Part shown: piece after piece, positions 6,378 through 41,300 of the stretch
How the letters are laid out: each line of letters starts with the position of its first letter
Numbering within the stretch: the first letter of the stretch is position 1
Source: Isoetes taiwanensis
Lineage: Eukaryota > Streptophyta > Lycopodiopsida > Isoetales > Isoetaceae
NCBI GenBank assembly: GCA_021234155.1
Contig: JAJEKV010000001.1
Location: 26,275,189 to 26,339,188 of the forward strand
DNA length: 64,000 nucleotides
Direction of reading: 5' to 3'
Notes under the pieces: generated by a model
Told to the model about the DNA's origin: nothing
The model's input: only the letters and a program-made list of their open reading frames with translations
The model's database searches: none
Translations under genes and position numbers: made by a program

Positions 6378-6500
6378 GGTTTTACCCTTGAAAACCCTTT
6401 AGGGCGCGGTTTTTTTTAACCCGGACAGTAATAAGTCTGATGCGCTCCTTCATTGGGTCCCATAGATCGATTGGTCTCCGTGGACGATAAAAATCATTCT
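6378..6500 (+). mobile_element. LINE 3'-end stub (extreme 5' truncation)
   Basis: About 120 bp matches only the 3' UTR of the LINE family at 19.3-20.8 kb: CCACGGTTTTACCC, an AAACCCTT...GGTTTT arm pair, AACCCGG, then GGGTCCCATAGATCGATTGG and TCTCCGTGGACGATAAAA. The terminal hairpin is AGATC-GATT-GGTCT. The downstream sequence (ATTCTCTC) is not a clear tandem tail. Confidence 0.8.
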
Positions 6501-6784
6501 CTCTTTAACCATTTCATAATAGCTAGTTATAGAGACCAACAGAGATATAGGGTGGTTAGTTAGAAATAATGAAAGTTAGAGCTCCCAAAAAATGGTACAC
6601 GATAACCCAGCCTCCACATTCAAAATGAGGCCCTCCACCCCCTCTTTTTACCTTAAAATTTGCAAAATGGCAAAGGGTGTCCCTTTAAATACGCAGGTGG
6701 TCTACACTATTATGCCTTAACAACTTAATGACTAGGGTAATTCAAGTGTACATTTGTTCCATGACCTTGAGATTTATATTTTTA

Positions 6785-6870
6785 TTGTGCTCTTTTGATT
6801 GCGTCCCATAGGCCTATTGGTCTGCATGCTCGATAAAAATACATTCAATTCAATTTATTTGTCAATGTGC
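6785..6870 (+). mobile_element. LINE/SINE 3' tail with (ATTCA)n end
   Basis: GCGTCCCATAGGCCTATTGG, then TCTGCATGCTCGATAAAAAT, ends in ATTCAATTCAATT. This is the same terminal hairpin (AGGCC-TATT-GGTCT) as the other LINE copies with a different tail. The preceding about 60 bp does not match the LINE 3' UTR well, so the parent could be a SINE. Confidence 0.6.
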
Positions 6871-8357
6871 TAAAAATGCCAAATGCCAAATGCCATTTCC
6901 TAACAAAATATTTTAAAGTAGTAAATATATTTTGTACAATGCAACAATTTCCTACAAAATAGAGCAAGCCAATGTTGGACCATAATTCATCCAACTAAAA
7001 CAGGTACTAGAGCGAACATTGTTAGCTTACATGTTCGATAACTTCTACTCATCTTGTGTCCCACGAATTGTGAATGAAAGTAGATAGGTATATTATACAC
7101 TTCAATAAAGCAACATTTATGGAACATTACCAATCAATAGCTTGATCATTATGATTCACGTAGGCCTCTAGCCAATTAGACCACGTGTAGTAGAATTTGA
7201 AGTTGTGCAGCGTCAATTCTTACAGATGTATAGTAATCATAAAGTTTTAGATAGTCCTTTTTGCTCTTGCCTTAGAGACAATCTAGCTTGAGTAGCAAAA
7301 TTAGGGTTGAAGAAAGCTCGTGCCAATGAGGACACTAACTATGATGGAATTGTTATCTAGGTAATCAAATGGATAAACTTAGTAATTATTTCATTGCTTA
7401 GATCTTGCGAGAGACGCAATTGGCATGCTTCCATCCATCGATGAAATTGTAGATAAGATAACACATCCACATGTCAAAGCTCCATACTTATTACCATTAA
7501 TTGGCACACAGATATCACGGATTGCTAGAGCAATGGCATTTCTTGTTTAGGGTTGTTGATGAATTAAAGTTCCTGGCTACTGACAAATCTCTGCTGCTTT
7601 TGAAGATTGCATTTTATTGCACATAAGCTGGATTAACAAATCATTATACATCTTTGTAATTTGTTACTTGGATACATTTATTCATTCAATTGCCACTCAT
7701 ATCCTTTTCATCTAGTATCATCAATGTTATATCATATATTGCTGTTGGATTTGATAGCCTTTAGTGAGTTAAGATTCGCAAATCATGTTAGGCCATTGGG
7801 CAACAAAGGTTGCCATTTGCAATGTTTTTACATGTGCACCAAATTGTTCCAGCATTTGTTCGATGAACTCAATATACATAAACGTATGTTTAAACAAAGC
7901 AGCCGAGAGTGATCTATAAACTTAGTTGATATATGGAGATTATTTGGCTAGCAACCAATTTTGGAACTTATATCATATGTTGTAACTTCATTGAGTAACT
8001 TCATAACCGAATAATTATACATGTGCTAAGCAAATCATACAATCACCAATATCGCATGTCTTATAAAATACAATCAAGAAATGTTTGAGTATTCTAATTG
8101 TTTAACATTAGCATAGGATGAAGAATTTTAACTTGAAACGTATGGGCAGCAAGCAAGTCTACATTATGAAAGGCATGTAAAATGCCAACAATTCATACTA
8201 TAGTGGGGCATATGATGATAGACAAGTGTAGACCCCGAACAATTGTTTCTATAGTTTTAATGACGTAACTATTTTTAAAAGGCAATTCAGGAGTCTTACT
8301 TTACTAGAAAAAGAATGCATTTCCATAGTCCTTTGGTGGCTGAATTGATGTTAATCT
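6871..8357. other. AT-rich stretch, nothing recognised
   Basis: No supported gene. The 83-codon frame at 7661-7912 lacks recognisable motifs. A CATC-type microsatellite (8358-8390) closes the stretch. Confidence 0.4.
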
Positions 8358-8390
8358 ACCTATCTATCCATCCATCCATCCACCCACCGG
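8358..8390. repeat. (TATC/CATC)n microsatellite
   Basis: Short imperfect tract of TATC, CATC and CACC units directly beside the foldback element. Confidence 0.85.
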
Positions 8391-8418
8391 ACACTGACAA
8401 TGCACAGATTTAAGGTTC

Positions 8419-9284
8419 GTGATGACATATCATTTGCATATCTGAAGTAGCCTGGATGACATATTTAAAAAAATTTGGACTTATTCAAATCTAATAAATG
8501 TGCTCCAAGAATGCCATGATAATATTATATGTATTTTTAGCTCTTATTGATTTTAATAATTTGTTCTGTTTATCTTTAAATAAAAAATATGATACTTACT
8601 AAAGTTTAAAGTTGCTTTCTAAATTAATTCTCGATTTCGTCTATTTAGAATTAAATTATCATCTAAGATAACTCTGTATAATTAAAATACTATGCTTTTC
8701 AAAATATTTAAAGAAAGTTTTAGATTGGTATTAATTAAATGATTACGTTTATGTTTAATAAAACATGAATAGTTTATTATCGATTAAATGTCAATATATT
8801 TTATTTCATCAATAATAAATTATTCAATAGTTATTATTAAACCAATAACTTTATTCATTTAATTAATTTCAACCTAAAACTTTTCTTGAAGTATTTTTTA
8901 AACCGTAAAAATTTGTAATTTGTGAAATTCTAATAATAGTTTTAAGTCAATCGCTTATCAAACTATCAGATTTCATTTAATTATCATGATTGCTAAATTT
9001 TGAATATGTTAAATAACTACAAATTGAAATTTTTATATTCTTGAAATGTCTAATTCTAAATAGATTCAAATAAAAATTAGTTTGGAAATCAAGTTTATTC
9101 TTTGATAACCATTATAGTTTTAATTGAAAGATAAACTTATATAATTAAAATTTATAAAAATTATAACAATCAAGAATTTTCAAACAATACATATATTCTT
9201 ATAATGGCGTTCTTGAAGTGCTATCTATTAAATCTGAATAAGTCCAAATTTTGTTGAATATGTCATCTGGAAATTGTCATCACC
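8419..9284. mobile_element. Foldback element, about 870 bp
   Basis: Nearly the whole interval is one imperfect inverted repeat. Outer arms: GTGATGACA at 8419 against TGTCATCAC ending at 9284, and GGATGACATATT (about 8455) against AATATGTCATCTGG (about 9267). The next block, TTTGGACTTATTCAAATCTA, pairs with TAAATCTGAATAAGTCCAAA. Inner blocks around TCTATTTAGAATTA, AAGTTTTAGATTGG and AATTAATTAAATGA are also mirrored, with the apex near 8790-8800. There is no coding capacity and AT content is very high. Structure and size fit a foldback-type MITE. No confident target duplication was seen. Confidence 0.8.
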
Positions 9285-9334
9285 TTGCATCAAGCGTTCA
9301 TGGGAGGTTTGTGTTGTATGTTAAAACTAATTCT

Positions 9335-9419
9335 CCATCCCTCCTTCACTCCCTCCCTCCCTTCTTTTTTTCTTTCTTTCTTCATTTCTTTCTTTCTTTC
9401 TTTCTATCTTTCTTTCTTA
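9335..9419. repeat. Pyrimidine microsatellite (CCCT)n/(TTTC)n
   Basis: CCTCC-type units grade into a (TTTC)n run. The 98-codon frame crossing it is a by-product of the repeat. Confidence 0.9.
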
Positions 9420-9539
9420 CGACGATTTAGGTGTTGGTTATATTCTTCCTTTGACATGTGCTGGTTATTCTTCATTTGTACTTTTGCTAATTGGAGACTT
9501 TTGCTAATTGCTAATTGCTTGTTGATATTTGAACATGAA

Positions 9540-10320
9540 AGGATGATCATAAAATTATTTTATGTTTATTTTGTTCAGTAGGAGAAAAAACAATATACAT
9601 ACATAGCCATGTCCTATGAGAGTACACCACAATTTGTGCACATTTTTTAAGCCCTGCAGGGAACTAAAATCTTTTTCTTGGTAAAGGATGATATTTATTC
9701 CAATCTATCTATTGTTTGTTGTAGTTGTGCATGCTAAGAGATATCTCGCATGAGATATTTCTGAAAATGATCCAAACAAGACGAGATACGTGGATATATG
9801 TTGAGAAATATCTTAGGGTGTCGGGATATTTATGAAAATGATTCAAACAAGACGAGATACGTGGATATTATGTTGAGAAATATCCTAGGGGTGATGCGAC
9901 ACAATCTGATCTGGTGATATGTGGCATTTTTTTTAAAAACGGCCTAGGAGTGTGATGCTATGATATTGACATCCAATAAAGAAAAAGAAAATAATTGAGA
10001 ACAAAGTTATAAAACTTTTGCATTGTTATTTTGAACCACAAATACACAATCGAGTTATTGTGGCAATTCGTAGTTTGTCATGCTATTTTGTGAAAGAAGG
10101 AATAGGGTTGTTTCTAGGGGTTTATGTGGCAGACAATTGAAAACATAAAGGGATGACTTTTTTGGCATGATTCAAATATTTTTTTAGAATGACCTCAATC
10201 CACAATAGCATTTGACGTGCATGTTTACATGAAATGGCCATCAAGTTTTCGTCATTGGAACATTAGGTTATTATATTTGAAAAATAGAATCACAAAAAGT
10301 GACATATATACAAAAATATG
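9540..10320 (+). repeat. Unclassified dispersed repeat, copy 1
   Basis: Matched in inverted orientation by 26150-26870. Shared blocks, in order: TTTATTTTGTTCA, CATAGCCATGT, AATTTGTGCACAT, ATCTATTGTTTGTTGTAGTTG, GAGATACGTGGAT, GAGAAAT...GATGCGACACAA, GTTGTTTCTAGGGG, TCAATCCACAATAGC, GTGCATGTTTACAT and GTGACATATATA. It carries a private 72-bp tandem duplication (about 9761-9895) containing CAAACAAGACGAGATACGTG twice. It has no coding potential and is probably a non-autonomous TE of unknown class. Confidence 0.75.
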
Positions 10321-10433
10321 AGTATTGTCAGCAAAAATAAATCTTGGTCATATAAATCTTACATGAATGTGTAGCTTTATTTGGCTTTTTATTTAATGAT
10401 ATTAATTTGCGGCTTATTTTTGGGTTGCCTTAA

Positions 10434-12481
10434 AGGAAGGAAGGAAGGAAGGTACTTTTATCGTCCACGGAGACCAATCGGTCTATGGGACCCAATACAA
10501 AAAACGCGCAAGAAGCGGATTCTTGCCGGGTTAAAAACCCAGCCCAAGGGTTTTCGAGGGAAAAACCGTGGCGAAATCACCCTGGCGACAAAAAATCTAA
10601 CATATAAAATGCGAAACACCCAAATATATCTGATCATGCACCACACCACGTAGTGCCTAATTAGCGGGCAAACAAGCGGGGGGCAAATGTGACCTCGCCC
10701 TCCAAGACCTCTGAATGTAATGACCCGTGGCGCGTCTTGACGGTGTGTTCATCAGCAAAATGCAAGGGCAAGTCCGGCCGTACTAAGGGGCGTGCACGGC
10801 CCGGATCGGTGACTGAACGCCGGGCAACTCGGAAAGTGTGAGACTCATCCTCAATGGCACCCGCTTGACAAAGACCGACAGAGCACTGTCCCCGGCGGGG
10901 CTCCCCAATCCACCGCCTGCCTCGATCTGCGAAGATGGTGGGCACTTGTGCGAATGGAGGCAATGAGTCCGCACTTTTTCGGGGCAAAAACGCAGTAGAA
11001 GAGCCGTGGGCCCCGGCTAACACGAGGTTGATGTGCTCCTTGTAATGGGCCATTTTGACCTGTTCTAGAGCCGGGGTCCCCGAGCTTGCCAAGGAAACAA
11101 GCGTCTAGGGTACTCCTCCCAGGTACATCCGCGATCGGCCGCTATGCCCACATGCAGCGCATCGTGCTCTGCGACGTTCCATCTGGCGAACCACTCGATC
11201 TCTTACCCCTCCAACAGGGCCCTAAGCCAAGGGACCCATGGCCCGCGATGTAAGCCAGTCGCGGGAGCCGAGCATCACCCATAGTAACCACTTTCTGAAA
11301 ATAGGCGATGTGTCTATCAAGGGGCTGCCCGCTGAAGGCGGCAAGAATCGATTTCTGCAGCAGAATCGATGGGGGACTGAAGGTTTCACCCCAAGTGCCC
11401 GTGCCAAAAATGCCTTCGCACTGCTCCAAGTCATTCCGTTCGCCAAAGAGCGGCCGGGCCCCAAACCTCGACCCGTCTGAAGGGCCGGGCTTCGACCCGG
11501 TGCTTAGAACAGATGTGATTGATGGCCCCAATCATAGAGCTACGCCTGGTGGCTGTTGTTACGCATGGCATAAAGCGCTTTCCGCCTGCTGTCACCCATA
11601 GCGGATAGAGCGCCTTCCAAAGCAGTGAGGAGGGGAACTCCACCCCAGGTACTTGTAGGTGGGTGTGACGTCCACCTACCGTCCCCGATATGTGAGTCGC
11701 GGGAGGCATGGGGTGGCGGAAGAGGATATGAGAACCACCCCGGTCTTGGCGGTTGACGCGCGCAATGTCGTAGCGACAAAATGTGTCTAGGGCATCCGGT
11801 GAGACCGCATAGCTTACGGGGTGTGGGCCAGCGGGCCAACATCGTCCCGCATAGATGAGCCGGCGGATGACCTGGTGCAAAAGCCGTATGCCATCCCCCC
11901 ATGCTCGATGGCGTGGCTCTAACTGATCAATGTAGAGGCCAAAAAGTGTTGGCGAGGGGGGCAACCCCGGACCCCGATACTACGGTGAATGCTTGGCCCG
12001 TCCGGTGCATCACGCCAAAACAACTCTCATACAATCAGATATGGCATTACGCGACAGGCAAAATGGAGCCCCATTGGACGCAGTCTAGCCTGACTTTTCC
12101 CCGGAACGTATCAAAAGCCTTCGCGAAGTCCACAAAGCGGCAATACAAGTCCTGCCGATGATTCCTATTGTCTTCAATCGATGCCGCCCATTGTAAAGAT
12201 ATGGTCAATCGTTGAGTGGCGGGGTCTAAAGCTCGCCTGCGTGTGAGGGCTCGCATCTCTGGCCGCCTCGTGTCCGGTGGTCAATCTGCCGCTTTCGAGA
12301 ATGCCGATAACGGTTTGGCAAATCTTGAATCGACCATGATCGTCCCCAAGAATTGGCGGACAAAGGTGTGGGTCGCCCGCCTTGTGAATGGGAACAACCC
12401 TGCTTGTGGTCCATTGTCGGGGGAGATCTTCCTGCAATGCTCTGTTGAACAGGGTAGTGAGGACCGGCACAAGTGGTAGGG
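10434..12481 (-). mobile_element. LINE copy (-), 5'-truncated in RT, broken
   Basis: GC-rich block against AT-rich flanks. On the minus strand, in order: RT start with TTLFNRALQEDLPRQW and VVPIHK (about 12465-12390), DLYCRFVDFAKAFDT (about 12150), SPTLFGLYIDQLE (about 11950), a palm-motif region reading LIYAGR where the intact copy has YADD (about 11850), VPGVEFPS (about 11640), and the C-terminal Cys/His region GEPRRGQCSVGLC with DESHTF (about 10920-10840). The 3' UTR ends in the conserved hairpin (AGACC-GATT-GGTCT, about 10480) and a (TTCC)n tail (10434-10454). Frameshifts and the lost catalytic Asp pair make it dead. The endonuclease domain is absent. Confidence 0.88.
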
Positions 12482-13436: not shown

Positions 13437-13797
13437 AAGTTAGATAGGCGCCTCAGAGCCAAATCTGTGCTCTTAGCACTCATTTCTGACCAGTGGTCAA
13501 ATCCCTGGTTGGGGTACTCTTAGTTGCCTCCCCATGCCTTAGTTTTGTTTTGTTTTTGTTTTTTTATTTTTGACATGTTCTGTGACGGGGCTTAGTCCCC
13601 GGTTTCATTTGGGCTTAGGCCCTTTCCCCTCTGCATGTACTAGTCCCATAATCTGATTGAGCTCCCATGGACGTTAAAAATCAAATCTTATCTTATCTTA
13701 TCTTATCTTATCTTATCTTATCTTATCTTATCTTATCTTATCTTATCTTATCTTATCTTATCTTATCTTATCTTATCTTATCTTATCTTATATATCC
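13437..13797 (+). mobile_element. tRNA-headed SINE with LINE-type tail and (CTTAT)n
   Basis: The head has a polymerase III B-box-like GGTCAAATCC (13495-13504). An A-box-like region lies upstream (TAGATAGGCGCCTCAGAG, 13441-13458; weak). Two small hairpins follow (GGGGCTTAGTCCCC near 13588 and GGGCTTAGGCCC near 13612). The 3' end GTCCCATAATCTGATTG, then AGCTCCCATGGACG, is clearly related to the LINE 3' terminus GTCCCATAGRCCGATTGG...GTGGACGATAAAA. It ends in more than 20 TTATC units (about 13685-13790). A tRNA-like head plus a LINE-like tail is the usual SINE architecture in which the SINE borrows the LINE reverse transcriptase. Confidence 0.7.
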
Positions 13798-13982
13798 GCA
13801 GTTACATGGCATATACAAAACCCAATTCGCCTTTGTATCCACAATTACATGTAAAATTCTCCTATCTATAAAACTAAACAAGGAGTAGGACAAAAATCTA
13901 GAAATATAAAATTCCTCATTTTTACTAGTCCCTAAAATGTAAGCCACATATCCATTGTGCAAATCACATATGCCATATATAT

Positions 13983-16900
13983 TCACCGTCCAGATCGTAT
14001 ACTATGTGGTATATGCTCACATATTATGTGTTGAATTCGATTTTTCCATGGACGAAATTTTAATCGTTTCTTGGTGGAAATGTGTGCCTTCAGATACTGG
14101 TGGGGGCCGTGTTCAAGCGACGAATTGACCTGTGTGTGGTAGTGCTCTGTTTTGGGCTTTGCAAGAGTGGGCGCAACCCACAGAGAGGCAGCAAAGCGCG
14201 CATTCAAATGCAGCTCCTGCTCTGCGATATCCGACATATTCACAATGTGTTGATAGTCTATGGACCATCTTGCGAACCATCCCCTACGATGCTCTTGCCA
14301 TACTCTCTTCAGACGTTGCGGCCCTTGTGCCAATAACAGAGCCCGGGGAGGAAGACATTGTGCATCCATTTCGTCAACCTTATGGAAATCGCCAAGGTGC
14401 TGCGCATAGCGAAGAATCTTTGCGGGGCCAAAAGCCAGTCTCATATAGCAAAATTGGATAAGGCACCGTGTCCTTGACGCCTAGGATGTATGTCAGGAAA
14501 GCCTTCTGCACCCTCTCTAGCTTATCCCAAGTACCCTTGCTAATCGGCCCCCCCCGGACCTCTACCCCATACTGGCGATACTAGTTCCACGAGTGCTTTC
14601 GGAACAAGTGCGCTTTCGCGTGCTAATCGCGAGATCGTATTACGTGGCGGCTATTACGCATTGCATATAGGGCTTTCCATCCCGCGCTGACCCTTCTTTC
14701 TACACAGTCATCCCATAGCATGTTAGCAGAGAAATCGATTCCCAGATACTTGAAGGTCCTTACAACTTCCATCCTTTGTCCTCTGTAATAGAAGTCACGG
14801 GATATCATCTTTGCTTGTGACGAGATTGGCAATAGCTTGGTTTTCTGGCGGTTGATCATCATTCTGCTATGTCCGAAATTGACCGAGAGCATCCAAATGT
14901 TCCTGCATACTCCTGGCTGTATGGGATAATAAGCCCAGATCGTCTGCATAGAGCAACTATTTTACTGTATATGCCTCTGGCAACTGCGGGCCACCACCTC
15001 CATGTTCTTGCATCCAGATCTCCAACTTGTCAATATAGAATCCAAAAAGCGTTGGAGATAACGGGCATCCCTGTTTAACACCTATGGTGCTGTTCACCCG
15101 GTGGTCTGACGCAGGCAAAGTGGCATGTATTCCGTCATACCGCCGGTAGATGGCATTCTGCAAATCCTGTGGGACATGTAGCTCCTGCAAGCGTTGCCAC
15201 AACAGGTCCCGTGGGACTGTATCATATGCCGTCTTAAAATCCACGAAACAGCAATATAGGTCACGTCGTGCATTGCGGCTAGCTTCCATAAGGATTACGA
15301 GTAAAAATATGATCACTTTCGTGGGTGGGGTGGGCGGAAACCTGCCAAGCTAACGCACGCACTCCAGTTTCCTCTGCCCATTGCGTTAACTTCTTCTCCA
15401 GCACCCCTGCTAGAAGTTTTGCGAGTAACGGGCTCACTATGATCATACGGTAGTTGGTGGAGTCATCCCTGCTTTCCGTCTTATGAATAGGGGTGACCTT
15501 GCTAACTATCCATTCCTGTGGGAGGCCCTCTCTGATGGCCTGATTGATTATCCCTGTCAAAGGCCCGAGCAAAGCTGGCCCACCCCATTTCAACAGCGGC
15601 CTGAAGTCCCTGCAAGTCCTTTGCTTTACCATTAGCAAGATGCTTAAAGCCTTGGTGGATGTCCGCCTCTGAGAGCTGTAGTGTTTCTCCTAGTTGATCT
15701 GGTATGTCAGCAATTGCTCATGGGGGGTCATACAACTCCTCCAACTGCTGTCTCCACTGGTCTGCGGTAACATTTCCAGGTGGTTGATGCCTCTTATACA
15801 GCACTCTACGCCAAAAGGCTTTTGGCTCAGTCATCAGTAGATCAAACATGCGTTGCTGAGTTTTTGCAATGTAGCGATGCTTTTTGGATTTCAAGAATGC
15901 CTTATAGTCCCTAATGGCCTGTGGCCGGAGATGTGGATCTAAGATGGTGCGTAGCTGACTCTTTAGAGCCTTACATTCCGCGTCAAACCAGGGGTTTTGA
16001 GGGAATTGCACAGTGTCCCTGCGTGGGAGCTTTCTTGCTGCAAAGCATTTACTGGCTGCTGCGAGTAAAGCCTTCACCAACCATTCACACTTATCATGCA
16101 ATGTATAGAGGGCATCAATCCCCTGTAGCTCACGTTCAAGCTCCACCTCATATCCTGCTTGCTTCCTATAGTTCGGGGTGTATCCCAAACCCCAGGGGTG
16201 CCTGTCCTGTGGCCACGCCACTGAGTGCCTCCAATCCAAAGTGACATAAAGTGGATAGTGGTCCGACAAAGTATCTTCATCTCTTGTTCCTGTGCCTGCC
16301 GCGAAATCACGAATGATATCAAGTTCTGGCACTGGAGCTAGGAGATAGTCCACCACACTGGCTCCGCCATCGCCCCCGTCGCTTCTGCAAGTGAAGCCCC
16401 CTGATCGCGGCCACCTGAGCATACCATTGCAGATCACCATGTCAAAGATCTGACATAGCTGGACCAACTCTCTTCCAAAGGCTCCGGAGAGCGTCTTGCA
16501 TGCTGGGATGCCTCCGTTTCTAGCCAAAGTGGGTTGGAGTCAGCATTTCCCTGAAAGGTGACCGGCCCAGCGTCTTGCGTGCGTGCATTGAAATCTCCCA
16601 ATAAAAATACATGACCCTCCTGGCGATACTGCTCTATGTCATCATACAATTCCCTATAGGGCATATGCACATCACGTATATTCACGATGATGCACCACAA
16701 TAGAACTTAGAAGTTTCATGGGGTATATAACATCCTGCGATAAACAGTGGGCGATGGTGAGGCTGTAACACTCGTATCCACAGGAAGCGGTTGAGTCTAT
16801 CAGCCTTGTGGAGCGAGACTGTGGATGCTATAGCATCTTTGAAGTAGCACGCGACCCCTCCATACCCTCGCTTGCCATGGCTCATTGGCGGTGAGAAATG

Positions 16901-17360
16901 ATGGTACCACAGGATGTCCGACAGCGGATGACCACTATATTCCCATGTCTCTTGCAAGAAGATGATGTCCATGCCTGCGATAATTTCAACAATGCCATCG
17001 CCCGGGCTTCGGGGAAATCCCCTACGCCTTCCACGACACAATTGAAGGCACTCTTCCTATGCTTGCGTGGTGACGCCTCCCTATCCCAGATCCCCATGGA
17101 GGCTGCGGGGAGTTGGGCCATTGGCAGTCTTTGGGGCTCTCATGTCCTCTGGCTGTTGTGGGTGGTGCCCGGGTACTTGGTCCTGGCTGCTGTGTGTGAT
17201 CCGTCATTCTGGAAGTGGGGGATCCAGAAGTGCTTGGTCCCCTGGTCGCCGCTTCTGCCACTGTTGGCCGTGGAGGCACAAATACCTTCATCTTGCCATT
17301 CACCAGGCCTGTCGATCCCCCTGAAGAAGGGCTCTGTATTTCGACTTTTGTTTTAAGCAA
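13983..17360 (-). mobile_element. LINE copy (-), endonuclease plus RT, 3' end missing
   Basis: The longest LINE here. A Pro/Ser-rich leader (17360-17060) precedes an endonuclease/exonuclease/phosphatase domain: FPEARAMALLKLSQ (about 17000), IIFLQETWEY (about 16950), GYGGVACYFKDA (about 16860), VFLLGDFNART (about 16600) and SDHYPLYVTLDW (about 16250). The RT domain follows: PQEWIVSKVTPIHK (about 15520), DLYCCFVDFKTAYDTV (about 15260), GVKQGCPLSPTLFGFYID (about 15080) and FKYLGIDFS (about 14740). The C-terminal region runs to about 13990. The Cys/His end and 3' UTR are absent. Frameshifts and stops are scattered through it. Domain content indicates a plant endonuclease-encoding LINE, same family as the 19.3-kb copy or close to it. 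Confidence 0.9.
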
Positions 17361-19261
17361 ACCCTAATTGTATCAAGCATTCAGCTATGGCATCTTGATA
17401 TGCTTTGATATGCTGGGGAGGCTGGCATTTGGATGTGATGGAGAGGCTGTAACTAGCTGGCAAAACTGCTTGATCCAGACCTAAAGTGGTAGTTTCAATG
17501 ACAAGCAAAAAATGGAGCATTTATGGCATGTGTTGCACATGATTCGTAGTTGCAATAACAATAATATAGTCAAGTTCTCAGGCTTGTTCTTAGAGACAAG
17601 TGTCATTGTTTTAACAAGTCTGATTACTGCAAAGCTGCCAGAAGTACGTGTCATGATCCATTTCGAATATCTGCATGTAGCTACGATGTTCTAGATTCAG
17701 GCAAGCATCTTTAGATTTGCTCTGAAAAAACTTGTTATTTGCTTTAGGCTATGTTTCGATCACAGATTTTAGTGATGCCTAAATAGTTACACAAGCTATT
17801 GTAGTGAGTATCAATGGAGCAAACAACAAATAACAAATTTGATGGCGGAAGCAACTTACTCATGTTTTATGGCTTCTTTTGTCATTTTAACAGATGGATC
17901 TATATACATATGCTCTAATATTTCTGTGCAGATGCCTATGGATCATGAACAATTATCCAATGAAAATATGCCAAAGTTGTTGCTTAGTGGTAGTGATAGA
18001 CGTTAGTTTGCATTGGTCTAGGGGTTGTTTGCTAGTTTGCATAGGTCTAATGCCTGCTTATAGCTAATGAAGGTATGGCTTTGGTATGTAGGTTGTGGGC
18101 TACTAATACATAGATTTAGATGCATAAGGTTTAAGGTCCTGCCTTGATGTGTGTTCTTCTTGGAGTTAGAACTTGGTATAAATGCATAAAAGCAGTTTGT
18201 AGTTGGTTCAATATAGGGGCCTGCAGTATATCTTGCTTGTAGGTTGCTGGCTGCAGGTTTTATATTAGAGCATAGCTTAGTGTATGTTAAACTAAATGTA
18301 AATTTATGATGTTTCCTAAATGTAAAATTATGTTGTTTGATCTTCCATTTGTTACTTCACCGACAGATTCTGTTTTAAGGAAGATTTTTTTGAATGTGAA
18401 TGTTCATTCAATCAACTATAAGTAAAAATATATGTTGTGATCCAGGAACTGAACATTCAATTTGATTTGCAGCATTTAGCAGGAGATTATATGAATTAAA
18501 CTGATTTTTCAGGCTTGTAGATTATGAAATGGCAAATGACATGATTGATATAATTTGATTAATACTGATTTTCTTTTTATGCAGGTTTTATACGGTAGTT
18601 TTGACAATGCTGGAAAGGACATATCTGGGATTCTAGATTGGTCTTTTAGACTGTGCCTTTATTTTTTGTTCTTATGCAGACTGTCATTTTCTAGCTATGT
18701 AGTTGATGCTTATTTGGAGAGTCTATTCATATTGCTTTGCTCTAGATTTGGTTATGGCCTTTTCCAGAACCTTCTAAACTTCAGATTGTACAGAATCACA
18801 TTGTCTTCTATGTCTGCGGAAATCAAGTATTACCATGACATCTTAAGTCATACTCAATCTTGGTTAAAGCTTTAATGCTCATTTACATGGCTGTCTATAA
18901 TGGTAGCGCAACATTATGAAATACATCTTAGGCTTATGTATAGAATTTTACAATTTTCACTTTTTGTGTATCTCTATTTGTCCCATATGCCTTAATCAAC
19001 TCTCTCCATTGACTTCAAGGTTTTCCATCATTTCTTGTAGGTTATGATCGCCAGTTATTCCTTATAGCTAGCTGATAGAGGAATAAGAACATGAAGACGA
19101 TTACCTAGATTTGCAGCCACTTGAGCCACTTGAGAAAGAGCAACAGCTCTGTAATTTTATTTTGTTGAGAATGATTAGAACTTTCATTTCTAATCCTTTT
19201 TGCTAGTTGACAAAAAAAAAATGTAAGCTGATTTGTATTACAAAAAAACAAGTACATAAAG
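17361..19261. other. AT-rich stretch, nothing recognised
   Basis: No coding motif recognised on either strand. The 106-codon frame at 18555-18875 is hydrophobic and AT-driven and is not supported. Confidence 0.35.
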
Positions 19262-20798
19262 GTTGGTTTTCTTTAGGCAAGGTTGTCCTCTCTCACCCAC
19301 ACTCTTTGGACTTTACATTGACCAGTTGGAGGCCTGGCTAGCTGCCAATTGGGGGGACGGTATACAGCTCTTGCACCAGGTCATCCGGCAGCTCATCTAT
19401 GCGGATGATGTGGACCTCTTGGCCCATACACCAGAGGGAATGCAGGCACACCTAGATGCCCTGGACACATTCTGCCAGGCGACGGACATGCGGGTCAACT
19501 TGGCCAAGACTAAGGTGGTCCTCATATCCTCCTCACGTCATCCGGCACCTCCGGCACTCACTTATCAGGTGCAGATGGTAGAGGTCACACCCAGCTACAA
19601 GTACCTGGGGGTGGAATTCCCGTCCTCAATGTATTGGGATGCATCCATGCGCCTTCGGGTGACCGCAGGTTGGAAGGTGCTATACGCAATGCAAAACAAT
19701 AGTCACGGGGCAGAGCTGTATGACTGGGGCCACCAGTCACATTTGTTCTGGGCACTGGTCGAGCCAGTTCTTTTGTATGGGGTGGGGTCGAGGTGTGGGG
19801 CCCAGTGGTGTCTTTGGCGACTTGGAACGACTTAGAGCAGGTCCAGAAGGCATTTTTGACGCGGGCACTTGGCATGAAGCCCTCAGTTCAATATCAGATC
19901 TTGTTGCAGGAGACAGGATTCATGCCCCTGCAGCATGCGGCCCTCGATAGGCACATTGTCTATTTCCAGAAGGTGGCCAACATGGGCGACACTCGGCTCC
20001 CACACTTGGCTTACGCTGTGGCGATGAGCCCGCAACGACTCGGGGCTTGTTGGAAGGACAAGAGAGCCCAGTGGCTGGCGCGTTGGAATGTAGACGCACA
20101 TAGGTACGTCCAGATGCACACAGATGCCGGCCGGGATAGGCTGAGGGAGTACTTGGACTCTTGTTTCCTGGGGAGGCTCTGGGACCACCATGCTCTGGAA
20201 CAGGTAAAGGTGGCACACTACAAACAGCACATAAACCCCATCCTGGTTCGAGGCCCCTAGCTCTACCTGCGTTCTCAGTTGCCCATGAAGAAGCGCAGGA
20301 TTATCGCGTCCATTCGAACAGGGGCCCACCATCTTCGGCTTGAGACGGGTCGGTGGGTTGGAGAGCCGCGCTAGGACAGGCTTTGTCAGTGTTGCTCGCT
20401 GGGGGTTGTTGAGGATGAAAACCATGCCTTCCAGAGCTGTCCAGCCTATAGTCAGATTCGGGCTCGCTACATTCTCTTGGTGCGGCCGGTGCGCCCCTAC
20501 CGCCGAAGCTACTCGATGCAGCCGTCGATTCGATCCCTTGGCTCCTACCTCCAGGAGGTTTTGGATCTGTGGACTCACCTCTGCCCCCGGGCGCCTATCT
20601 GTGGTTCCGGGAATTCATGTGTATATATGTATGGTTATGCGGTACCCGGCCGGGTTTGTTCTTTTCTGACGGTTTTTTCCCTCACGGGGGAGGGGTTTAA
20701 TCCGGGTAGCAACGGGCTTGCTGCAACCGTGTAATTTGGGTTCCATAGGCCGATTGGCCTCCGTGGACGATAAAAGAACCTTCCTTCCTTCCTTCCTT
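19262..20798 (+). mobile_element. LINE copy (+), RT C-terminal half to complete 3' end
   Basis: 5'-truncated inside RT at QGCPLSPTLFGLYIDQLE. The catalytic LIYADDVDLLAHT is intact (about 19395-19435), followed by MRVNLAKTKV and SYKYLGVEFPS. After a frameshift near 19790 the thumb/connection region continues (19793-20260: FLTRALGMKPSVQ, HIVYFQKVANMGD, EQVKVAHYKQHIN). The Cys/His end WVGEPR with EDENHAF follows in another frame (about 20345-20440). The 3' UTR has a GGGTTTAATCCGGG-type block, the terminal hairpin AGGCC-GATT-GGCCT (about 20748) and a (TTCC)n tail (20779-20798). This is the best preserved RT palm in the window. Confidence 0.92.
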
Positions 20799-25190: not shown

Positions 25191-25220
25191 CTTAAGGGAA
25201 GGCTTTTAAAATTTTTATGT

Positions 25221-25290: not shown

Positions 25291-25364
25291 TTCCATAAAT
25301 AATTTATGTTTCAAATATACTTAAGGGTAATGATCTAATTAAAATAAAATAGAATATAACATTC

Positions 25365-26060
25365 TGGAGGCTCTAGAAAGTTCTAAAATCTTCTAGAATG
25401 TTCTAGAAAGTTCCAGAATTCTAAAATATTTTGGAATATAAGAGAATCTAGGGGGAAGGTAAGAGAATCCTTCCAGAAAGTCCCAAATTGTTCTAAAAAG
25501 TTCTAGAATGTAGGGGAATCTTCGGGAATGTAAGGGAATAGGGAAATACTTCCAGAAAGTTCTAGGATGTTTTGAAAGTTTCAGAATATTCCAGAAAGTT
25601 CTAGAATGTTCTAGAAATTTCTAGAATGTAAGGGAATCCAGGAGAATTAAAGGGAATCTAAGGAAATCTCATAAATTGTAAGAGAATCTAGGAAAATATT
25701 TACAAGTCTAAGGGAATCTCTTAAAATCTAGTTGAATCTAAGGGAATCTAAGAAAATCTTGATGAAATCTTAGAGTTTTTTTTAAGATTTTGCAAAGAGC
25801 CACAATAGAATGTTCTAAAATGTTTCATAATAAAGGTGTACAATATAAATCTTGAAAAAAAATGTTCTAGATGCTCAGGGCAAGCGCCTCAGTCTAAAAA
25901 TAGAAAGTGTTTTAGAAATGTTGCACAGATCCAAAATAGATTATTTTGGAAGATTCTAAATGTTCATGGGTAAGCACCTCAATCAAAATAAAAAATTCTA
26001 AGAGAATCTAGGGGAATCTTCATGAATGCTAAATATAGTACATAGAATGTTGAAGAATAT
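25365..26060. repeat. Degenerate 10-12-bp repeat block with TTCTAGAA arrays
   Basis: The block is built from GTTCTAGAAN, AGGGAATCTA and similar short units. Two stretches (25376-25418 and 25584-25626) read as regularly alternating GAA and TTC triplets with 2-nt spacers. The right part (GAATCTAGGGGAATCTT) is the reverse complement of the unit type at 34.4-35.6 kb. Confidence 0.85.
25376..25626. promoter_or_regulatory. Heat-shock-element-like arrays
   Basis: GAATGTTCTAGAAAGTTC (from 25396) and GAATATTCCAGAAAGTTC (from 25584) match alternating nGAAn/nTTCn heat shock elements. The second array has nine consecutive units. The arrays lie 1.6-1.9 kb upstream of the armadillo gene. They arise from a simple repeat, so function is not implied. 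Confidence 0.3.
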
Positions 26061-26149
26061 AGAGGAATCACAAGAGAATCTCGGTAGAATCGTTGGTTAT
26101 CTAGAGTATGACAGGGCCTTGCACCGTAAGAACATGCTTAAACTGGAAC

Positions 26150-32870: not shown

Positions 32871-33503
<633 letters not shown>

Positions 33504-34434: not shown

Positions 34435-35650
34435 GCATGAAAGATTCCTCTAGATTCTACAAAGATTCCCTAAGATTTCTGAAGATTATCCCAAGGTTCC
34501 TTTAGATTCTGCAATATTCTATGTAGATTCTTCTAGATTCCCGTAGATATTATGAAGATTTCTCTAGATCCTCCAAGTTTCTAACAAGATTCCTCTCGAC
34601 TCTCAAAGATTTTATAAAGATTTCCTTAGATTCTCCTAGATTTCCTAAGATTCTCTTGAGATTCCCTTAGATTTTCAAAGATTATCCCAAGATTCCTCTA
34701 GATTTTCCAAGATTCCATGTAGATTCTCATAGATTTCCAAAGATCCTATAAAGACTCCCCGAGAATCCCTAAGATTTTCTTGAGATTCCTCTAGATTCTC
34801 TAAAATCCTATGAAGATTCCCCTAGGTTCCCAAAGATTATCCAATGATTCCTCTAGGTTCCCCAAGATTCTATGAAGATTCTCCTAGATTCTATGAAGAT
34901 TCTCTTAGATTCTCTAAGATTCCTTCGAGATCCCTTAGATTCTCAAAAATTTTAAGAAGATCTCCTAGATTCTCTTGAGATTCGCTTAGATTATCCTCGA
35001 TCTGCAAAGAATCTCTTAGATTCCTTAAAGTCCTACAAAGTTTCCTCTAGATTCTTAAGATTCTACGAAGATTCCCTAGATTTTATTAAGATTCCTCAAG
35101 ATTCTCCAAGATTCCATCTAGATTCCCATAGATTCTTAAATATTTAATGAAGATTCCTTTAGATTCTCCTAGATTCCCAAAGATTTATTTGAGACTCACT
35201 AAGATTCTCTAAAGATTTTCCTAGATTCTAAAAAAATATTCCAAGATTTCTCTAGATTCTCCAAGATTCTATAAAGATTCTCCTAGATTCTCCAAGATTA
35301 GGATTACTCTAAATTGTCAAAGATTTTAGGAATATTTCAATAGATTCCCAAAGAATCGATTGAGATTCCTATAGATTCTCTTGAGATTCCTCTAGTTCTC
35401 ATAGATTCTGTGAAGATTCCTCTAGAATCCCTAAGATTCCATCAAGATTCCTCTTAAATTCCCTTACATTCTCAAAGATGCCCATAGATTCTCTAAGATT
35501 CTCATGATATTCCTCTGGATTCTTTAAGATTCTATAAAGATTCTCATGATATTCCTCTGGATTCTTTAAGATTCTATAAAGATTCTCTTAGATTCCCTCA
35601 ACTTACCATAGATTCTTTGAAACTCGAACATTCTAAAAAGATTCTTAGTA
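34435..35650. repeat. Degenerate AGATTC repeat block, about 1.2 kb
   Basis: Irregular array of 10-16-bp units such as AAGATTCCTCTAGATTCTCC and AAGATTCCCTTAGATTCTC. One local duplication (TTCTCATGATATTCCTCTGG at about 35501 and 35538) is evident. The unit is the reverse complement of GAATCTAGGGGAATCTT in the 25.4-26.0-kb block. Confidence 0.88.
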
Positions 35651-37690
35651 TTCGATCATGTTGGCTCCAATTGCGACAAAATACGCCAAAGCACTACTCA
35701 TTGGAAAGCTCTCGACGAGTGGAATCCAATGGCATGGGCACCACCTTCATCCGACCCCTCTATTGCAACCTACATGCCTTCGAAGGCGATTAAACAGAAG
35801 GCAGCTTTTTAGAAAGTCCACTTATAAATGCTTTGCCACCTCACTCCCTTTTTATTAATAAGGGTGCCACCTCATCTCCTTTAAAAAAAAACCAATTTAA
35901 TATTAAAAAGTTAATGGCTAGGATTTATCCTCATCTTTTGATCTAACGGTTAAGATCTGCTGCACCAAATTCACTTTTTGGCACCTTCCTTGCACCTTCC
36001 TCACAAAATCGAGGGCTAGGATTTATCCTCCCCTTTCGATCCAACGGTCCGGGGATGTGGTACATGCCCCCATAGCATGTCCATGTATGCCCATCATGGC
36101 CATCCATGCACCACATGAGGTGGAATCATCCTAACCCTTGGTCTTATTTATTGACGGATAGGATCAATCTCTATGAACATGACCCATGGGATGACAAAAC
36201 CACACATCCAATACCGGCAGATATATAACAGATAGTGTAGGTGTGCAAAATATATAGTACAATAATAGTAGTTCTACGGGGATTTTATTCGAATATGTAA
36301 ATAATATTAGCTAAAACCATAGACCATATTCCAAAAAACAATTGACTAGGTTATTATTAAAAAGAAAAGAAAAAAACATGCACAAACATCAGCATTGGTC
36401 AATCCCTTTGCTCTCTTATCTGGCCATACAAGAACCGTTAGGTCCTAGATGATACCATCCTTTCCCGGTGTACAACATCTATGTTATCCTATAACGAAAC
36501 AAAACTAGATTCGTAACTCTATAGTCTTTGTACCCGTTGGGCAATAATCCATGATATTGAACCAGATTGTATTACTACTGCAAAAACCTTTGCAAGTATT
36601 TATGTTACTTCATCAAAGACATAATTTCCGTCTTAATCCATAATCCTACAGATAAAGTAATATGGCTTGAAAGCCTTGTACTCCCTAATTTAAAAGGAAG
36701 TTCAGAATTAAATTCTGTTACAACCATATTACACAATATAAATTCAGTTCGAGGCTTTTTCCTTAAAGCCACATAGGGTCATTGCTTTTTGCTTAAAAAA
36801 CCAATAGACATTGCATAACAATAAGAACACTAGTTCAACGGGATTTTTTTTAAGAAAAATAGTAGAGAACCCATTACCTACTATCCAGAAAGTATCTACA
36901 AAGAGTCAACTTGTAACAGCTTGTAAAACTTGATTGAGCATCAAAGTACCTTAGTAGGAATTGCCCAAATACAGCTTGTAAATAAGCAGCAGCTTCCAAA
37001 AGAGTGGTCAAATCCTTGCTTTTGTAGACATTCTAAATTCTTTTGCCATTCATTGATAAGTTCACCTTCCAATGCCAAATCCTTAGCTCACCTAAAACCT
37101 ATTGGACAAAAGGAATACATTAAGAAGAGAAGCCCGTACCTGCAGCCAACTAATACATCATTAGCCTGATAAGGGTAAAGATGCGAGGGCCAAAAGGTAC
37201 CTTAGTCTTCTCGGTTGTCAACCGATCATCTAATGTAGACTTTTTGCCCATAGACACAGTGAGCTATGTAAAAATAAACTAAATAATCAAGACAAATTCA
37301 TTTGATACCAAAGTATCAGTCATAACTGCTTATATCAGATTTAACTTCTTAAAAATGACCATTCTAAGATGGATAAGCAACCTAAATAGTTAGCAACCTA
37401 AAAACGAACATGTTTTAGGCATTTAGAAATCCAGAAAAAACATTCTCTGATCAGATCTTTAAGCTTAAAATCAAGTTATGCTTGCATGCAATAACTTCCA
37501 TCCGTATTTTGGTCATAGTGAAGCTCTTGCTTTGCTAAAAATGAAATTTTCTTAGCTATTTTAGAAAAATAGAATGCCATACCTGGTTAACCACATTGTC
37601 AGACCCAAAGACAACTTCTATTTGGGGCTGAAACTAAATGAGATGTTTCCCATATCAAAATAGAAATAGGGTCGCTGGTTTGTCCTGGCG
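35651..37690. other. Intergenic AT-rich DNA
   Basis: A short direct repeat, GGCTAGGATTTATCCTC with a nearby GATCYAACGGT, occurs at about 35925 and 36010. Frames at 35658 and 36567-37169 have no recognisable motif. Confidence 0.35.
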
Positions 37691-37699
37691 TGCAATCTT

Positions 37700-38260
37700 A
37701 TTGTGCCACGTGGCAGGTCCATACAACCTGGAATGGAAGTAGGGTTCATCCATTCCGCATGACCGGTGGCCCAAGTTTTTGTTTAGGGTTTTCCTTAGGG
37801 TTACAGCCATAGCCGCTGCGTTTCGTCTAGCTTCTCATCGAGTTCTTGGCTTTTCAGCTCGATTTTTGGCTTCAAAGATCTTCGCTGGACTTAAGGAGCT
37901 TCAAAGATCTTCACCAGATTTCTTCTCTGCAAGTCTGTTCTGAACTTCTCAGCTCAGTTTTTAGCTTTTCAGAGAGCCTTATATTCTTCGCAGGCAAAGC
38001 TTCAAAGATCTCTTTATTTTGCAGGTAGAGCTTCAAAGATTTCGCAATCAGAGCTTCCCTATTCCACAGATCTTCTATTTCTATTTCGTAGAAAGATCTT
38101 CCCTATTTGCTTCGCTATTTCGCAAATAGATCTTCCAAGCTCCCCCATTTCTATTTTCTAGGGGAACGGAGGTTGGTCCTCAATTCCTAGTTTTGCAGGT
38201 AACCCGCTTCTGGCTAACGCAAAACCGGAAATGGATTCCCAACCTCCGTTCCCCTATACA
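37700..38260 (+). promoter_or_regulatory. Promoter-like or LTR-like block: G-box, telobox, hairpin
   Basis: A perfect palindromic G-box TGCCACGTGGCA (37704-37715) is followed 70-90 bp on by telobox-like TTTAGGGTTTT and TTAGGGTT. A C/T-rich leader with repeated GCTTCAAAGATCTTC phrases (37860-38140) and the hairpin at 38159-38254 come next. No coding frame follows. It could be a promoter plus non-coding exon, or a fragment of an LTR. Confidence 0.3.
38159..38254. repeat. Inverted repeat, arms about 38 bp
   Basis: TAGGGGAACGGAGGTTGG (38159) and AGTTTTGC at the loop side pair with GCAAAAC (38219) and CCAACCTCCGTTCCCCTA (ending 38254). The centre of the arms mismatches. Loop about 20 nt. Confidence 0.75.
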
Positions 38261-39085
38261 TTATCTTATGGAGAAACCCGATATTTCAGTTGGGTATCTA
38301 GAACTGATTGTGATGTTTCTTCTTCTCTGATTGTCTTGCTTCTCCTATGGAAAATGCATTCAAGAATATCTAGATCTGAGATAGAGTGATCATAGATGAC
38401 ACGGCAAACTCCTAGCTGTTAGCAACATGGCCGAAATGCTTGTTGAAGTATCAAAAAAAGCAGGAATGATGTCATGAATCATTTTTTGAGATGGAAAATG
38501 CATTCTAAGATATCCAAGTCTGAGATCAAACAAGATTAAATGGCTAACTCTTGGCTTTCTTTCCTCAGGCAGTGTAATCTAGTTGGGTGTAAACTATAGC
38601 TTAAGATGCAAGAAAGTTTGTACAGAACCCATCAGATCCATGCTAGGGTTGGCCGGATCTCTGGCGCCTTCCATCATAAAGTCGAGACATTTTAGGTAAT
38701 TTTCACAATAAAGATAAGAGTTGCTAAATTAGCAACATGTATAGGAAGGCATACATTCAACTATACAAGCTAATACATAATTATCCTCTCCTGGTTGAGC
38801 TAGACCATATGAAAAGTATATAACCCTCTACAATAAAGCAGTAGCCCTAATTTATGATGTCAGGAAGAAATAATCAAAGCCACGGATATGCCTTTTGAAA
38901 TTTTCTACTACTTTGAGATCTGCCTGAGTATGCTATGGAGTTGCCTTTTATAAATGGAAATATAAACCGAGTTACTGGTTGAGTGTACACCCAAATCATA
39001 TATCCCAAATATTCTCCATTGCAAATCAATGGTCCAAATGCACAATAAAAAATGCCATTTCAATTACCCACGGTTGGGCCACAAG
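38261..39085. other. AT-rich gap
   Basis: Nothing recognised. Confidence 0.35.
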
Positions 39086-39111
39086 AAAAAAAAAAAAAAA
39101 AAAAAAAAAAA
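39086..39111. repeat. Poly(A) tract, 26 nt
   Basis: A-only run on the plus strand. It lies on the wrong strand to be the tail of the adjacent minus-strand LINE. Confidence 0.95.
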
Positions 39112-39189
39112 GGAAGCAGATTATAAGCCTATAAGATAGTTTTATACAAGCGAAAATTTTCAACCACAAAAATTTATACAGTATCTTCC

Positions 39190-41300
39190 ACGATTGGAAG
39201 AGTATCGGTCTGCTCTCCTAAACATGACTTCTAATCCTCCAAAAGTGCCTTGTATCCTCACATATATTGGTCTCTCAAATCTAAAATATCTGCTAGATTG
39301 CTCCCAATTACCTTCGTAAGAAACCTAAAAAATTCCACGTGTATTGGCTTGAACCATATGATGCCCTCTCAAGTCTTGATAGGCTGGAAATCGGAGGATA
39401 ACATGATTCTCATCCTCCAAAGTGTCCTCACATAATTTGCACGCAGGAGTTCCCGTGGTATATCCTTCCATCAGCCCACCTCAATGCTTAGGTGGTGTGA
39501 GCTGAGATACATCCTGCATAGTGTGTGCCTTTTGTGCAGTGAAATTTTTTCCCTCAAGTAAGGCATTTCAATTAAATCTAGATTCGTCTATTTTTTAAAA
39601 CCCTCCATTTTCAGTTTGGCACCGCTCCGCATTTTTTGCTTCACTTTGTTCTTTGTTCTATATAAATGATCTTGCTTACAATGCCTTTGTTGGGATATCC
39701 TCAATAACGATGTCCCATTCTTTAAGCCACTTAAGAAACCCACCATACCATCCCTTATTCTCACTGTGCTTGCAAACAATATGCGTTAAGGCTTAGTCAT
39801 CCAAAGCAATATGGGGTAGGCAGCATAGCATAAGGTATCTGCACCTTTACTCCCAATTCACAACTCAGAATTTCTTTTAGACCTTTTCCACTTTCTTCCA
39901 CCTATCCAATGATAAACCAGACCTCCATATTGGACCACCACACAAAACTACTTGTTGGACCAGTGAGCAGAACATTTTTTCTTTAACCCACAATCAATGA
40001 TGTTTGGATTCTTACATTGCCTCTGCATAGCAAACAAGGTTTTTAGCCAATCGTCTATCCTTTGATCAAACACCTTGTTCCCTCTATAGGACTGATCGAT
40101 TAACAAACCTAGATTTTATAAGTACATATTATGTCCACCTTTTTCCCTTCATAGTGAAAGATATATCTGTCCGTCTTCTGAGTACCAAATATCTAAATTT
40201 TTGTTTTGGATAGATTGACACTCATGTCCATCGAGTCATAAAAAGGTGCTAGGGCTGCCAAGTGTTTTTGTAGCCCTCGTATACTCTTAGAAAAAATGAC
40301 AACATCATCTGCTTATAATAGCAAAAGTATTATACACGCCATTAGTGTTCCAGAAGGTGGTGGCTATGGATGAAGCCCGGCTGCCCAACCTTGCTTTGGC
40401 AAAGGGCGATGGGGCCCGGCGACTCAAAGCCCCGCTGGAAAGACAAGCAAGCCCGGTGGTTCTCGCGATGGAATGTGCAGTAACACACGATGTGGACCGC
40501 TGCATACACCGAAGAACGCTACCGCCTTGAAGCAAAGATTTGATGCTTGCTTCATGGCCAAGCTTTGGGATGCAGAGGTCCCCGTCACATGTCAAGGTGG
40601 CAAATTATCAACAAAGAGTTAATCCCATGCTCACGAGGGGCCCACACCACTACTGGCGCACCCATCTACCCATGAAAAAAGCGCTGGGTGATTGCTTCCA
40701 TTCGCGACAGTGCACACCACCTCCGCGTTGAGGCGAGGGAGATGGATTCGGGGCAGCGTGAGGAGGACAGAGTCCGGTCTTTGTCAACGGGGCACCATTG
40801 AGGATGAAAGTCACGCCCTCCGGGCCTGTCCGGCGCATCACGAGCATATCCGGCCTCGGTATGCTCTTCGGTTAGTTGTGCCCCATCGGGCCTCGCATGA
40901 GCTCTTGAGCCACGGCCTCTGTAGGCTTGTTGGGATCAGATCCGGGAGGTAATGTATAATGCGGACTCGCTTATGCCCCCGTCCAGGCATTAACCTCACC
41001 TGTACTTGTGATTATGTATATAATCGTAGCAGTATGTCGGCATCCTTATTGCTACTAAGGTTTTTCCCCTCAAACCCTTCTAAGGGGTTTTTAATCCCGG
41101 TAGTATCGCTTTCTTTGCTCTCTCTTTGTACTTGGGTCCCATAGGCCAGTTGGTCTCCGTGGACGATAAAATCATATTCTATTCTATTCTATTCTATTCC
41201 TTCATTATTAGAAACTCAATCTTCCAATTCATTACCAAACAAGGTGAGTGATAGTGGGCATCCTTGCTTAACTCCAATATTGCTTTCAATTCTAACATCC
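39190..41300 (-). mobile_element. Second LINE family (-), interrupted by another LINE
   Basis: On the minus strand IGVKQGCPLSLTLFGNELED lies at about 41280-41215. After the inserted element, the palm motif reads LLLL-stop-ADDVVIFSKS (about 40325-40285), followed by MDMSVNLSKTKI (about 40230), then a degraded connection region and a C-terminal zinc-binding motif CKLCEDTLEDENHV (about 39445-39405). It is more diverged from the other LINEs than they are from each other (for example MSVNLSKTKI against MRVNLAKTKV) and has many stops. The endonuclease part is missing. Confidence 0.8.
40348..41200 (+). mobile_element. LINE 3' fragment (+) nested in the second LINE family
   Basis: Starts abruptly at TTCCAGAAGGTGG, which matches the HIVYFQKVANMGD region of the 19.3-kb copy. 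It continues through VKVANYQQRVNPML, RWIRGSVRRTESGLCQRG with EDESHALRACPAH (zinc-binding end), and the 3' UTR AAACCCTTCTAAGGGGTTTT. It ends with the terminal hairpin (AGGCC-AGTT-GGTCT, about 41148) and a (TTCTA)n tail. A clear target-site duplication is not visible. Confidence 0.88.

Follow-up and report, generated by a model that had tools for sequence, protein, structure and literature searches.

Structured 3' ends and lineage-linked tandem tails in a probable stringent-type LINE family of Isoetes taiwanensis

Results

LINE 3' ends in the window

The DNA analysed here in full, hereafter the window, is a 64-kb stretch of the lycopod Isoetes taiwanensis (GCA_021234155.1, contig JAJEKV010000001.1, positions 26,275,189 to 26,339,188) within a 1.658-Gb assembly of 1110 contigs. 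It carries six putative 3' ends of long interspersed nuclear elements (LINEs), each built around a short hairpin. Five of these termini were known from the initial annotation and were recovered at 6457-6492(+), 6803-6838(+), 10456-10491(-), 20740-20775(+) and 41136-41171(+), with the very stems listed there (AGACC/GGTCT, AGGCC/GGCCT, AGGCC/GGTCT and AGATC/GGTCT). The flank said to be common to all five, TCCGTGGACGATAAAA, is exact in four of them, the 6803 copy having GCATGCTCGATAAAA instead. A sixth end, overlooked in that annotation, maps to 13643-13679(+). An nhmmer profile of the ends matched all six with E values of 1.7e-15 to 3.1e-10 (52.3-35.6 bits), against a top match of 11.9 bits in 20 windows resampled at equal dinucleotide frequencies; since the profile was trained on these same six ends, high scores in the window are built in.

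Three of the six ends are preceded by LINE coding pieces. The minus-strand copy at 10456-12250(-), where 12250 is the limit of the stretch read and not a mapped boundary, consists of a reverse transcriptase (RT)/C-terminal fragment and a 3' end (hairpin 10463-10491) with a (CCTT)5 tail at 10433-10452(-). The 5'-truncated copy at 19260-20775(+) retains an RT domain (PF00078 at 19260-19835, E 4.6e-15), a C-terminal part and the 3' end, with its hairpin at 20740-20768 and a (CCTT)5 tail at 20779-20798(+). A further 5'-truncated copy spans 40340-41171(+), its 5' limit being approximate, with the hairpin at 41136-41164 and a (TATTC)5 tail at 41175-41199(+). By eye, this copy seemingly sits inside RT-like sequence of a different, minus-strand LINE (39600-41260), with a GVKQGCPLS-like motif on one side and an ADDVV-like motif on the other.

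Among the remaining ends, the 5'-truncated one at 6350-6492(+) (terminal hairpin 6457-6485, tail leader from 6493) has no clean tandem tail; 82 nt of this copy are 90% identical to a copy in L023, and a possible target-site duplication (TSD), ATTTCAT(G/A)AT, was noticed by eye and not detected by the TSD script. The divergent end at 6794-6838(+) (hairpin 6803-6831) is followed by two to three ATTCA units from about 6842. The sixth end, from a related lineage with its own body, covers 13472-13679(+) (terminal hairpin region 13643-13672), 13472 being the onset of many body matches and no proven 5' end, and precedes an (ATCTT)21 tail at 13685-13791(+). The adjacent 200 kb hold two clear ends (in L014 and L023) compared with six in the 64-kb window, which is therefore rich in ends; L003, 5 kb beyond the other side of the window, carries another one.

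Genome-wide copies and conservation of the 3' end

As a check independent of the window-trained profile, we counted the 17-mer CTCCGTGGACGATAAAA in the genome, which yielded 6,192 exact copies (3154 + 3038), whereas the reversed pattern yielded none (0 + 0). The version with an A-U stem pair, CCATAGACC-NN-TTGGTCTCCGTGGACGATAAAA, occurs 1,914 times (992 + 922; control 0). A sample of 100 listed 17-mer places, obtained as 99 pieces, was then read by script, and in 58 of these 100 copies the match reaches to 12 positions or fewer from where the 143-position end profile begins.

Consensuses of subfamilies I, II and III (22, 21 and 4 copies) are 93-97% identical over the last 40 nt, a value that is partly built in, since the search pattern sets the last 17 nt and the ends served to choose the groups. 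Identity is 72-87% from -41 to -80 and 80-88% from -81 to -140, the latter block being free of both effects, and falls to 43-60% farther upstream. The 3' end is hence conserved far above the body, as expected of a stringent-type LINE, and together with the conserved bulged hairpin described below this backs the UnaL2-like reading proposed in the initial annotation.

The terminal hairpin

Unguided RNAalifold analysis of 42 sequences returned a nine-pair hairpin, CCAT-AGRCC-NNTT-GGYCT-CC-GTGG, with an energy of -9.25, a covariation term of only -0.3 and 98.1% of the cells paired. These 42 rows were chosen by us and comprise 36 of the 58 near-full copies, four window copies, L023 and L003, with 6803 and 13643 excluded. 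A bulge or internal loop 5 bp from the loop gives this structure the form of the bulged stem-loop found near the 3' end of stringent-type LINEs. In the lower stem, some single-sequence folds favour GTCC/GGAC over CCAT/GTGG.

The stem had also been credited with compensatory changes. One stem pair is indeed seen as A-U, G-C and G-U among the five window ends; however, C stands on the 3' side in one of five copies, with a 3 in 5 chance of an opposite G, so that the window alone provides no statistical support, and covariation from window copies alone was dropped as statistically empty. The five window stems represent conservation, with no significant covariation. The 42 aligned sequences likewise fail to bear out the compensatory change, which does hold across more distant lineages and in a second, upstream stem that the initial annotation had not seen.

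An upstream hairpin with covariation

This second long hairpin lies about 50-135 nt upstream of the 3' end. Its 12-pair stem could form between ATTRCTRYC-A-CGG, some 112-125 nt before the 3' terminus, and CCG-GRYAGYAAT, some 60-72 nt before it, and was picked by eye on the same sequences used for the counts that follow. Paired cells amount to 84.3%, versus 24.6-39.7% when the stem is slid. Two-sided changes occupy 31 cells, versus 14.0 ± 3.0 in shuffled controls (0/500) and at most 15 when slid, and affect eight of the 12 pairs (slid, at most six). The main swaps are C-G to A-U (18, 11 sequences) and G-C to A-U (19, 9), and because the changes fall mostly between few subfamilies they represent few independent events. 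An outer extension, CAGCAGGC/GCTTGCTG plus one more pair, is 74% paired (261/352 cells) versus 29-35% when slid. The upstream stem has a probability of 1.0 in the folds of consensus I, consensus II, L077 and L100. In the window, with hand-counted coordinates, it maps by alignment to 6367-6432(+) in copy 6457 (ATTACTG..CGG / CCG..CAGTAAT), where it is absent from the minimum free energy (MFE) fold, and to 41048-41106(+) (ATTGCTACTAAGG / CCGGTAGTAT).

Conservation by itself is silent on what reads the sequence, and the 3' end might instead be kept as DNA or for 3' processing of the transcript (cleavage or termination), in line with the AUAAAA, near a polyadenylation signal, that can be read at its very end. 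RNA structure is nonetheless indicated by paired changes, both within the upstream stem and from lineage to lineage, and bulged 3' hairpins required by the RT are established for UnaL2, ZfL2 and SART1 in the available portions of PMC4176376 and PMC5135761. We regard such a DNA or processing role as improbable, and recognition of the RNA by the RT as the better account.

Tail units follow element lineages

Stem base and tail unit could be cross-classified in 72 of the 100 copies, the other 28 having no readable stem or a different tail. CCTT follows 31 A-stem copies and a single G-stem copy, and ATTCT follows 40 G-stem copies and no A-stem copy (Fisher p 1.4e-19, which overstates the independent events because the copies are related); 71 of the 72 thus fit A-stem/CCTT or G-stem/ATTCT. 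The leader bases sort in a similar manner: AGACC-GATT stems are followed by [A/G][T/A]A and CCTT-type repeats, AGGCC-AGTT stems mostly by TCA(TATTC)n, and AGGCC-AATT stems mostly by an AATC or ACTC leader and then (TATTC)n. Rarer tails are (ATTCA)n in a few copies and (TTTC)n in one; ATTCA and ATCTT tails mark other lineages. As exceptions, L082 has no tandem tail and L030 no leader. Median unit numbers are 4.2 for ATTCT (n=53, range 2.2-20.2) and 5.5 for CCTT (n=36, range 2.0-7.0), which makes both median tails about 21-22 nt long.

Read from these sequences, tails are mostly inherited by lineage and not made anew at each insertion. The initial annotation had described a different tail in each copy and proposed that the enzyme seeds new ones. 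Units do vary in the window (CCTT, TATTC, ATTCA and ATCTT), but they are linked to lineage and not to the individual copy, the 10456(-) and 20740 copies both ending in (CCTT)5. It is highly unlikely that the enzyme makes a new tail per insertion, by slippage or untemplated addition, with each copy seeding a microsatellite: the spread of unit number from about 2 to 20, the several units within the window and the deviation of L090 and L091 from the unit of their lineage would suit such a process, yet unit type tracks lineage almost perfectly (31/0/1/40) and the leader bases preceding the repeats are mostly lineage-bound too. Inheritance of the unit still leaves room for slippage in tail length, with which the varying unit number is compatible.

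5' truncation and target sites

The remaining 42 of the 100 sampled copies fall short of the profile start, four of them being undetected by the profile. Truncation reaches inside the terminal hairpin in 12 copies, namely eight whose match begins no earlier than position 112, together with the four undetected ones; a regular-expression count gave 15 copies without the hairpin 5' strand, including L055, L074 and L108, which match upstream, and 12 is the figure used. The shortest copies consist of about 17-20 bases of the end plus the tail. All losses are 5'-sided, the 3' end being present by construction because the last 17 bases served to find the copies.

Across 11 short copies, a set that includes L074, maybe untruncated since its upstream part still matches the family, TSD likeness averaged 7.18, versus 5.57 for mispaired flanks (permutation p 0.0063). 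The clearest TSDs are those of L002 (9 bp, exact), L045 (21 columns, two differences) and L028 (16 columns, three differences). This likeness around the tails suggests that, in at least some copies, the tails came with the elements.

Dong and TRAS are reported to insert into microsatellites (PMC2887409, as far as its available text goes), and the present LINE could likewise have chosen suitable pre-existing arrays, all the more as its tails resemble ordinary microsatellites and a long (TC)n array comes after L001. Against this, the unit tracks the element lineage and not the target, the leader bases that separate GATAAAA from the repeats are for the most part specific to a lineage, and a repeated flank piece brackets the tail in L002, L045 and L028. 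Insertion into old microsatellites is disfavoured because the unit follows the element and some tails lie inside apparent TSDs, and we consider it extremely unlikely; extreme 5' truncation and TSDs round some tails favour priming in the tail instead.

The sixth end and related lineages

The sixth end belongs, as judged from its sequence, to a related but distinct lineage. A 211-base query from the body upstream of 13643 gave 40 matches including itself (40 scored of 90 candidates), which makes this body a dispersed repeat present in at least 40 places. All 18 related places retrieved have the same kind of end. In 11 of them, counting both L130 and L131, which are one sequence retrieved twice, AAGCTC-GGA-GAGCTT replaces AGRCC-NNTT-GGYCT, with the flanking CCAT unchanged and a strand resembling GTGGAC on the other side, and three further relatives are one base off this stem. 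Other paired stems are AACCC-GATC-GGGTT in L140 and GGCCC-ATTG-GGGTC in L134. These stems were read by eye and checked by folding, which backs the hairpin in L126 (z -3.0) and L134 (z -2.0). ATCTT-type repeats follow the stem in most of the 18 relatives, L133, L134 and L139 being the exceptions.

A B-box-like stretch upstream of 13643 raised the possibility of a tRNA-derived short interspersed nuclear element (SINE). ARAGORN found no tRNA there, and Rfam returned for this body a single mir-450 match (E 0.56), far under the gathering score. The tRNA-derived reading was dropped because, in the family alignment, the B-box form is not kept and breakpoints vary between copies; the repeat may be a second LINE lineage or a SINE.

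The (ATCTT)21 array at 13685-13791(+) is perfect over 107 bp and probably expanded after insertion, since most of the 18 relatives have few units. L130 (G000:C395:25234-25593) and L131 (G000:C197:18757-19116) are identical 360-base pieces on opposite strands, flanks included; located on different contigs, they reflect either a duplicated stretch or an assembly duplicate.

Other features of the window

Two further LINE pieces were found. The copy at 14103-16972(-) contains endonuclease, RT and C-terminal parts in pieces, with relatives of the endonuclease and RT domains in order, and no hairpin end was found for it. The open reading frame (ORF) at 54877-55965(-) encodes an APE-type (apurinic/apyrimidinic) endonuclease of a related LINE (PF03372, E 7.6e-9; PF14529, E 1.3e-6), and no hairpin end was found near it. 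No intact LINE ORF was seen in the window, all pieces being broken. A PDB search with the RT returned 10 sequences, R2-type and L1 proteins, at E 9.2e-8 and weaker, and one with the endonuclease ORF gave no match at E 0.01. The Rfam scan of the window at gathering scores, tblastn of the RT against plasmids, and end-pattern scans of the viral contigs and genome contigs collections (0 and 0) were all negative.

The window also contains a PF25598 (plant U-box ARM-repeat) match (E 5.7e-17), a (TAT)n array some 630 bases long at 32871-33501 (212 copies, 95% matches), a degenerate AGATTCYC-type minisatellite of about 1.2 kb at 34440-35640, repeats at 25618-26081 parts of which match this minisatellite on the opposite strand, and a 127-bp unit in two tandem copies (98-99% identity) at 58043-58298.

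Discussion

These data make it very probable that the ends described here are the 3' ends of a large family of stringent-type LINEs that have an APE endonuclease, an RNA with a structured 3' end, and a tail both inherited and exchangeable. Several observations weigh against this interpretation. None of the nine terminal-hairpin pairs shows two-sided changes in the 42 aligned sequences, and the 6803 end retains only the upper stem on folding. Pairing of the upstream stem (84.3%) is barely above the control in which letters were shuffled within pairs (79.6%), and its eight pairs with two-sided changes compare with 5.6 in shuffled alignments (28/500), a weaker result than the cell count; moreover, RNAalifold did not propose this stem, which is absent from two of six MFE folds (probability 0.0 in copy 6457 and 0.01 in L035). 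Among the related lineages, the L140 stem forms yet does not outperform shuffled sequence (z -0.01), L138 adopts a different fold, and L139, L124 and window copy 13643 fold weakly. The 100 copies were the first in contig order and no random sample, and a portion of the hairpin's 3' strand is set by their search pattern. Three A-stem copies outside the two-by-two classification have other tails (L090, TATTC-like; L096 and L107, ATTCA). Lastly, several of the 11 short copies show no flank likeness, L002 had already been seen before entering that set, and it is the only one of nine scanned copies with an exact TSD of at least 9 bp.

In the arrangement we propose, the RNA would end in a long conserved hairpin of about 85 nt, a short linker, the bulged terminal hairpin GTCCCAT-AGRCC-NNTT-GGYCT-CC-GTGGAC, CGATAAAA, usually three to four lineage-specific bases, and a tandem tail that typically measures about 20-25 nt. 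The RT of the element would bind this structured 3' RNA and prime within the tail on the nicked target; copying would run toward the 5' end, often halting only tens of bases in. Since the parent RNA would encode the tail unit, this unit would be inherited; slippage, during priming or afterwards, would shift the number of units. Such features are consistent with target-primed reverse transcription, the steps of recognition, priming and slippage being ones that we infer by analogy with UnaL2, ZfL2 and SART1 from the accessible parts of the literature on them.

CCTT, TATTC, ATTCA, ATCTT and perhaps TTTC trail the same kind of hairpin, so the unit appears exchangeable over evolutionary time. We tentatively suggest, as a possibility that falls short of likely, that the tail is an exchangeable module in which a fixed recognition RNA has been combined with at least four switched units (CCTT, TATTC, ATTCA and ATCTT).

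The comparisons that follow draw on the portions of the cited papers available to us. The Isoetes LINE resembles UnaL2 of eel (TGTAA tail), ZfL2-1 and ZfL2-2 of zebrafish and SART1 of silkworm in its bulged 3' stem-loop, with the bulge 5 bp from the loop as against 4-6 bp in the known structures (PMC5135761), and UnaL2 also in its short repeated tail. It differs from these animal elements in that several tail units follow one kind of hairpin within a single genome, and in the additional long, covarying upstream hairpin. The plant L1 element LINE1-1_ZM of maize and sorghum, with its partners ZmSINE2 and ZmSINE3, is alike in that its last ~45 nt are far more conserved and form a hairpin with compensatory changes (PMC3747384). 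Its hallmarks, a conserved UCU loop and a CGAG flank, were not found in the Isoetes ends, where the loops are mostly GATT, AGTT and AATT (GAUU, AGUU and AAUU in the RNA) and the flank is ACGATAAAA (ACGAUAAAA in the RNA), which was set by the search pattern in the genome sample and read freely in the window ends; the partner SINEs carry (T)n or (A)n at their termini (PMC3747384), whereas the Isoetes tails consist of 4-5-nt units.

RTE elements of Lepidoptera similarly leave many 3' fragments with tandem repeats that lie between TSDs, for which slippage was proposed (PMC2887409); the Isoetes tail is instead preceded by a long structured 3' region. Related LINEs and SINEs in PMC13295347 also end in different repeat units, but these differ by species or between LINE and SINE, while the Isoetes units coexist in one genome; the same source states that there is no consensus on the function of LINE tail repeats. 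Plant LINE hairpins with compensatory changes (PMC3747384), microsatellite spread by LINE ends (PMC2887409) and differences in tail unit among related families (PMC13295347) have already been published. Several inherited units behind one kind of hairpin within the same genome, together with a covarying upstream hairpin, were not met in a limited search of partly available literature, and we make no claim that they are unpublished.

If the tail is indeed an exchangeable module, the RT would need a tandem, slippage-competent tail of about 20-25 nt and not a particular tail sequence, and tail units would evolve as one mutated unit is repeatedly homogenised, much as telomere repeats do. The upstream hairpin suggests that the recognised RNA may be larger than the terminal stem-loop that is usually tested. 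With thousands of copies, one hairpin and several inherited tails, the family would amount to a natural experiment on tail requirements. It also illustrates how short microsatellites can come to fill a genome through a LINE, some copies being barely 17-35 end bases plus the tail.

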